A stretch of DNA of 64,000 nucleotides from Cupriavidus basilensis. GTDB lineage: Bacteria; Pseudomonadota; Gammaproteobacteria; Burkholderiales; Burkholderiaceae. Both the position numbers and the translations under genes were made by a program. The number at the start of each line of letters is the position of its first letter. Positions within the stretch are counted from its first letter, which is position 1. The stretch covers positions 1,302,001-1,366,000 of the forward strand of contig NZ_CP010537.1 of NCBI RefSeq assembly GCF_000832305.1, given 5' to 3'. Under the pieces are notes generated by a model that had not been told where the DNA came from, searched no databases, and saw nothing but the letters and a program-made list of their open reading frames with translations. This document shows positions 41,694 through 42,631 of the stretch, one piece after another.

Positions 41694-41860
41694 GCGGTTG
41701 CCGTCAACGACAAAGCGTGCATCGGGCAGGCCCGGCTTAGCCCGCACGCGGACGACATGGACGAGTTGCTCAGCAAGGTGTGGAAGGAGCCCGCGTTCTT
41801 CCTGACCCACCCGCTGGCGATTGCCGCTTTTGGCCGCGAATGCACGCGCCGTGGCGTGCC
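41694..41860 (+). pseudogene. Fragment resembling a family 2 encapsulin shell protein
   Basis: After a TAG at 41691 the plus frame reads VNDKACIGQARLSPHADDMD, then LLSKVWKEPAFFLTHP and LAIAAFGRECTRRGVP before sense is lost near 41860. I associate the string IAAFGRECTRRGVP and the preceding VWK-PAFFL-HP with the middle of family 2A encapsulin shell proteins (SrpI-like). Nothing of the shell's N- or C-terminal parts is present. The cargo-type cysteine desulfurase fragment follows in the same direction. The assignment is from memory of the family and needs a search. Confidence 0.5.
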
Positions 41861-41913
41861 GCATGCGCAGTCACCGTCGCCGCGGTCCTCGGCCGCGCCC
41901 GCCTACTGCTTCC

Positions 41914-42631
41914 TGGAGGGCGCGAGGCGTGACCCGCATGGCGGTGCGTCGAGCCTGTGCGAGATCGCCACGTTCGGCGACCCGCTCGCGCTGCATCTGC
42001 CGCAGCAGGGGGCGGGCGCTTACGGTTATGGGCGCGAGCAAGAGGAGACGCTGCCGTGGGCATCGTCTTCGGCGCGCGTGCCGTTCGACGTCGCCGCGAT
42101 TCGCCGCGATTTGCCGCGATTTCCCGATCCTGCAGGAGCGCGTCAACGGCAAGCAACTGGTGTGGTTCGACAACGCTGCCACCACGCACAAGCCGCAGCC
42201 GGTGATCGACCGCATCTCGTACTTCTACGCGCACGAGAACGCCAATATCCACCGCGCCGCCCATGCACTGGCCGGGCGCGCCACGGTGCCTACGAGGCCG
42301 CGCGCAGCAAGGTGCAGCGTTTTATCGACGCATCCTCACCCGACGAGATCATCTTCGTGCGCGGCACCACCGAGGCCATCAACCTGATCGCCAGGACCTG
42401 GGGCGTGCAGAACGTAGGCGAGGGCGACGAGATCATCGTCTCGCACCTGGAGCACCACGCCAATTCGGGCCCACCGGCATCGGCGTGCGCTCCGGGCATC
42501 ACTGCGCCCAGCCTATCCTGCGCCGCTCTGGCGTGGAGGCCACGGTGCGGCCGTCGCTGGCCTTCTACAACACCACGGACGAGGTGGGCCGGCTGATTTC
42601 GGTGGTCAGGCGGCTTTCGGGGCGCCGTTGA
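41914..42631 (+). pseudogene. Cysteine desulfurase pseudogene, probable encapsulin-2A cargo type
   Basis: The remnant keeps SufS-like segments in three phases: FPILQERVNGKQLVWFDNAA then [70 protein letters not shown], and C-terminally [17 protein letters not shown] with the catalytic Cys. Three defects are visible: an extra copy of the 10-bp unit GCCGCGATTT (42093-42122), a one-base loss near 42286, and an internal deletion near 42465 that removes about 230 residues including the PLP lysine. The low-complexity lead-in (QQGAGAYGYG) and wording match the family carrying a disordered encapsulin-targeting N-terminus. Confidence 0.75.

Follow-up and report, generated by a model that had tools for sequence, protein, structure and literature searches.

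The SrpI-CyD compartment of the cyanobacterium Synechococcus elongatus (PDB 6x8m, 6x8t) is a family 2A encapsulin shell that holds a cysteine desulfurase by means of the disordered N-terminus of this enzyme; its description (PMC8049743) states that the compartment is raised under sulfur starvation and that knock-outs have no growth defect. Encapsulin cysteine desulfurases are listed as involved in sulfur storage in a later source (PMC12407261), and a third (PMC8346489) gives a rhodanese and a serine acetyltransferase as the usual, not obligatory, accessory set of family 2A desulfurase operons and regards frequent horizontal transfer as supported by the finding of encapsulin operon types in phyla that are distant from each other. 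A joint search for encapsulins and pseudogenes yielded no literature on encapsulin decay among titles and the beginnings of abstracts.

The window, i.e., the whole 64,000-nucleotide stretch of DNA that was analysed, comes from a Cupriavidus genome of the C. basilensis group and holds an encapsulin-operon relic at 41757-42631 (+ strand): a fragment of a family 2A shell gene and, behind it, parts of a cysteine desulfurase gene in shifted frames. An open frame of this strand that starts at 41757 encodes the peptide IAAFGRECTRRGVP; about 36 shell codons are joined to three pieces of the cargo desulfurase, which lie on the same strand, change frame from one to the next and end with the cargo stop codon at 42629-42631. 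The earlier note on this DNA had reported a fragment and, after it on the same strand, a broken cysteine desulfurase. That note interpreted the locus as what is left of a family 2A encapsulin locus, allowing that the first fragment might match no encapsulin shell. Scanned apart, the shell fragment (41757-41867) gave its best match with the family 2A shell model NF041162 (E 3.9e-19, profile positions 153-188 of 295), followed by weaker matches with the family 2B model NF041163 (E 4.5e-13) and with the SrpI-like Pfam family PF19307 (E 2.5e-11).

All three desulfurase pieces scored higher with the encapsulin cargo model NF041166 than with the SufS model TIGR01979 (117.2 versus 71.4 bits for 42121-42318, 112.3 versus 77.1 bits for 42285-42470, and 87.1 versus 55.1 bits for 42470-42628). 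SufS models match the pieces too, and the earlier note had itself considered that the desulfurase might be closest to an ordinary SufS, which would leave a SufS pseudogene beside an unrelated fragment; with the cargo model ahead for every piece, and with the sister genome (G003, see below) carrying at this position a full shell gene (530 bits, cut-off 380) that is immediately followed by a full cargo gene (947 bits, cut-off 800), this reading has a practically negligible probability. The relic reading was also obtained by tblastn of the G003 proteins against the whole window, in which the shell matched 41739-41861 (85 bits) and the cargo 41853-42473 (259 bits) and 42458-42607 (86 bits). Among 500 Markov shuffles of 41690-42640 searched in the same way with six operon and flank proteins, the top score was 28 bits, and a chance origin of the shell and cargo matches is excluded.

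The relic lies between two intact genes that also flank the whole operon of G003, with DNA identities between the window and G003 of 93% and 98%. The left one (40615-41520, - strand, divergent; tblastn 92.7% to the syntenic G003 gene) is called methyltransferase-like from a weak similarity (Pfam Methyltransf_12 on the G003 gene, E 1.9e-4, under the cut-off of the model), and the right one (42867-43637, + strand; 99% to the syntenic G003 protein), named fpr by similarity, resembles ferredoxin-NADP reductases (NF008178, E 6.9e-52; it scores 176 bits, the cut-off being 390). The DNA match between the window and G003 stops at 43633, the end of fpr. At 43673-44146 (+ strand) there is a weak similarity to an integrase core (PF00665, E 0.0018, under the cut-off), perhaps a remnant of an insertion sequence.

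In G003 the operon reads, in this order, rhodanese, CysE-type serine acetyltransferase, shell and cargo, and the adjacency and order of shell and cargo in the relic are the same. The G003 shell (310 aa) belongs to family 2A by its score on NF041162; it also reaches 416 bits on the 2B model, but the alignment begins only at position 212 of the 450 in that model. The comparison with an intact locus in a related strain, which the earlier note had proposed, thus found the operon complete and at the corresponding site of the chromosome, and the claim that this genome once had the compartment and lost it is borne out. The loss of the rhodanese and serine acetyltransferase genes had been absent from that note.

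Four deletions were read from an alignment with G003 (contig L039, reversed) as reference, all coordinates referring to the + strand. The stretch that precedes the rhodanese gene in G003 is retained at 41586-41759 (165 of 174 bases identical) and ends in junction 1 (41749-41759), where 2475 bp with the rhodanese gene, the serine acetyltransferase gene and the 5' part of the shell gene were lost. The surviving shell gene piece (41757-41862; all 114 bases over 41749-41862 identical to G003) runs into junction 2 (41853-41862), at which 766 bp comprising the 3' part of the shell gene and the N-terminus of the cargo are gone and an exact 10-bp repeat, GGCGTGCCGC, is found. The lead-in that follows matched no family model when 41868-42128 was scanned alone; alignment to G003 (233 of 264 bases identical over 41853-42116) identifies it as the cargo N-terminal domain, so that 41863-42120 holds the remnant of this domain and the start of the catalytic domain. 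Ten extra bases, a short tandem repetition at 42091-42121, shift the frame before the cargo piece with the FDNAATTHKP region (42121-42286, NF041166 E 1.1e-33), and a 1-bp deletion at 42286-42287 shifts it again before the piece that extends to LEHHAN (42287-42464, E 3.6e-32; 172 of 178 bases identical to G003). Junction 3 (42463-42464, one shared base) removed 304 bp, including the FSGHK stretch, and junction 4 (42476-42487, four exact crossover bases) another 369 bp, after which the C-terminal end of the cargo, including the RSGHHCAQP stretch and ending in the stop codon, follows in another frame (42476-42631, E 1.5e-24). We take FSGHK and RSGHHCAQP to be the stretches of the PLP lysine and the persulfide cysteine of a SufS-type enzyme. 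No shell and no active desulfurase can be made from the relic.

Together the four deletions amount to 3914 bp, and with the two small changes (the 10-bp duplication and the 1-bp deletion) the lengths from the end of junction 1 to the end of junction 4 add up as 4633 - 3914 + 10 - 1 = 728, exactly the length in the window. The earlier note had proposed nested deletions within about 940 bases. The deletions are real; they are, however, serial rather than nested, with about 3.9 kb removed and about 0.88 kb left.

The exact crossover bases at junctions 1 to 4 number 5, 10, 1 and 4, and if one mismatch is accepted, junction 1 lies in an 11-bp and junction 4 in a 12-bp repeat (at the mismatch site of junction 4 the window has the letter of the left copy); short direct repeats are thus found at three of the four junctions, two of the three being imperfect. 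As a null expectation, 200,000 random junctions were drawn in the same sequence. A fraction of 4.5e-5 shared at least 10 exact bases, the level of junction 2, whereas five, four and one exact bases (junctions 1, 4 and 3) were shared by 1.0%, 2.8% and 48%, respectively; with one mismatch allowed, 3.6e-4 of the random junctions reached 11 bases and 1.2e-4 reached 12. A separate run yielded comparable fractions for the exact bases. Judged by these frequencies, junction 2 is firmly assigned to a short-repeat deletion, junctions 1 and 4 are probably of the same kind, and the bases at junction 3 give no sign of it. Because the counts of exact bases at junctions 1, 3 and 4 are low, junction 2 is the only one for which there is good support for a mechanism mediated by repeats.

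It might be asked whether the strain has the whole operon and the broken copy is an artefact of assembly or sequencing, since the two small frameshifts, taken alone, could be sequencing errors and the junctions carry repeats. Four separate deletions with scattered substitutions are, however, unlike the misassembly of an intact copy, the ungapped cargo segments are only 88-97% identical to G003, and the assembly comprises two contigs with a completeness of 100; we regard an artefact as extremely unlikely.

A second possibility is that the frame from 41757 to 42596, open over 279 codons, constitutes a new gene that arose by fusion of shell and cargo pieces and has its own function. The length of the frame speaks for such a gene, as does the fact that the shell piece and two cargo stretches are read in their own frame. 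About one third of the frame, on the other hand, is cargo DNA read out of frame, and the cargo pieces have accumulated 15 replacement and 10 silent changes on the relic branch (5 and 8 on the G003 branch; small counts, with seven ambiguous sites set aside and the duplicated stretch left out), compared with 0 replacement and 5 silent changes in fpr (1 and 4 on the G003 branch). No second fragment of this kind was found, the other shell matches in the genus and family searches being full or nearly full in length, except for a piece at a contig edge (G209). A fused gene is accordingly very improbable, and we continue with the reading as a decaying operon. The replacement and silent counts, small as they are, would be compatible with a recent release from constraint; in the shell piece, all 96 bases compared agree with G003, and the decay there is therefore recent or the piece too short to tell.

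The window genome (G000) was searched for other parts of the system. A full-length shell was sought with the shell model, which found only profile positions 132-189 of 295 (75.8 bits, cut-off 380) and no other family 2A shell; among the matches listed for the cargo model none passed the cut-off, the best reaching 234.5 against 800. The serine acetyltransferase and rhodanese of the operon are absent from the genome, which has only paralogs of them (the best remaining ones of the two genes 46% and 43% identical). Seven of the 60 genomes of the genus match the shell model: the window genome, with its fragment only, and six that exceed the cut-off (G003, G004, G005, G006, G015 and G040), among which G015 has the operon, not beside fpr. 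In many Cupriavidus genomes the matches listed for the cargo model include open frames (up to 546 codons, about 690 bits) that first looked like cargo without shell; this reading was dropped, as the one locus opened (G018, L054) is a SufS-type gene directly after a gene that, by eye, reads as SufD.

On a midpoint-rooted rpoB tree of 57 of the 60 genomes (three had no rpoB match), G000 is placed as sister to G003 (98.3% rpoB identity), and the remaining members of their clade are intact carriers except G058. In G058, which is nested in the intact clade, the operon, fpr and the left-flank gene were all not found, and so there is no junction to read. The species of the window is represented by one genome, and the loss is recorded for that genome.

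A match to fpr is present in 33 genomes of the genus, five of them with the whole operon before fpr and one being G000; in 25 of the remaining 27 (G012 and G015 were left out), the 420 bases before fpr were searched with a cargo-end profile for which three intact sequences were used. Cargo tails were found in G019 (E 2.2e-15), G032 (9.8e-9), G009 (4.5e-5), G043 (6.4e-4) and G024 (7.6e-4); that of G025 is borderline (E 0.019), and that of G038, not significant in the profile search (E 2.6), becomes visible only when its DNA is aligned with that of related genomes. Nothing below E 0.5 was found in the other 18. A looser blastn scan upstream of fpr returned short, chance-like matches in remnant-free genomes too (best E 0.003, in G054), and for this reason the tails are claimed from the profile search and the DNA alignment. 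The tail of G019 (L075, 7453-7645) is a decayed cargo C-terminal end directly upstream of fpr in which RSGHHC reads RSGYYR. G043 carries a second cargo end on a contig other than that of its intact fpr (L076 7788-8105, C3; 106 residues, 88% to G003); behind it stands a truncated fpr-like gene of which only the beginning is left. With cargo tails before fpr in five of the 25 Cupriavidus genomes searched, the patchy distribution in the genus is explained in part by loss.

The tail carriers form two groups on the rpoB tree, and fpr identities group them differently (G019 and G032 versus the other five). When the seven tail-relic genomes were aligned, TACAATACG, AAGTGGATCAT and GTGATCC were identical in all of them, and inverted arms, GGATCA and TGATCC, were seen at varying spacing; the third codon positions of fpr are only 75-79% identical between the two groups. 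The window relic is without these three motifs. In these related genomes the last codons of the dead cargo may have been kept as part of a candidate promoter or leader of fpr, a coding tail reused as regulatory DNA, but we consider this unlikely.

The family was sampled with 398 genomes. Matches to the shell model occur in 112 of them and exceed its cut-off in 111; only G000 has a fragment alone. A decaying shell-cargo pair was also found in a 1.9-Mb genome of another genus (G323, L173 3403-5858). Its shell, with two in-frame stops, is nearly full in length and over the cut-off (456 bits), without a large deletion, unlike the window relic, and the open frame of its cargo ends after 205 codons, with matches to cargo residues 309-618 further on; G323 is at an earlier stage of the same decay. 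In 13 loci from 11 other genera, drawn from the 105 matching genomes outside the genus, neither fpr nor the left-flank gene was detected within 5 kb of the shell (E 1e-5; towards the cargo, the distance covered extends only about 3 kb past the end of that gene). Partial matches at 83-88% occur in three plasmid records from other genera. A segment of Burkholderia cenocepacia (NZ_CP091013.1, 2772815-2773174) matches one third of the relic region; no gene is listed there in a gene table that is itself incomplete.

The locus is almost certainly a pseudogene cluster derived from a formerly intact family 2A encapsulin operon between the methyltransferase-like gene and fpr. The ancestral operon would have comprised rhodanese, serine acetyltransferase, shell and cargo cysteine desulfurase, and its compartment, following the literature, would have been a shell that takes up the desulfurase by its disordered N-terminus and serves sulfur metabolism or storage. 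We infer that slippage or end-joining, acting between short direct repeats, produced the four deletions, and these may have followed upon the compartment becoming dispensable. The relic records how a bacterial compartment can be lost; with the whole orthologue at the same place in G003 and the older tails in other Cupriavidus, it provides direct evidence that loss, too, has shaped the distribution, at least in this genus. Such a natural deletion can be compared with a sister species that keeps the compartment and bears on the purpose of the latter.

The locus belongs to a known system, and its value is that of an unusually readable record of loss. The G003 shell matches the solved shells 8t6r (E 4.3e-167) and 6x8m, the Synechococcus elongatus SrpI (E 5.4e-146), and the two N-terminal motifs of the Synechococcus cargo, LARLANEFFS and AASPYYFLDG (PMC8049743), correspond to LARLAGAFFS and AAPAYYFLEG in the G003 cargo. 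Both motifs were sought in the relic: the first was lost at junction 2, and the second is kept in the altered form AAPAYCFLEG, with Y changed to C. Unlike SrpI-CyD, the window copy has one motif gone and one changed, and its shell cannot be built. Intact operons that agree in shell family, cargo family and order of the genes are present in five relatives, namely G003, G004 (C. basilensis KF708), G005 (C. basilensis OR16), G006 (C. basilensis GW210010_S58) and G040 (Burkholderiaceae bacterium 16); the operon lies directly upstream of fpr in all five, and the same left-flank gene stands beside it in G003, G004 and G005. Compared with these five operons, the window copy is frameshifted and has lost about 3.9 kb.
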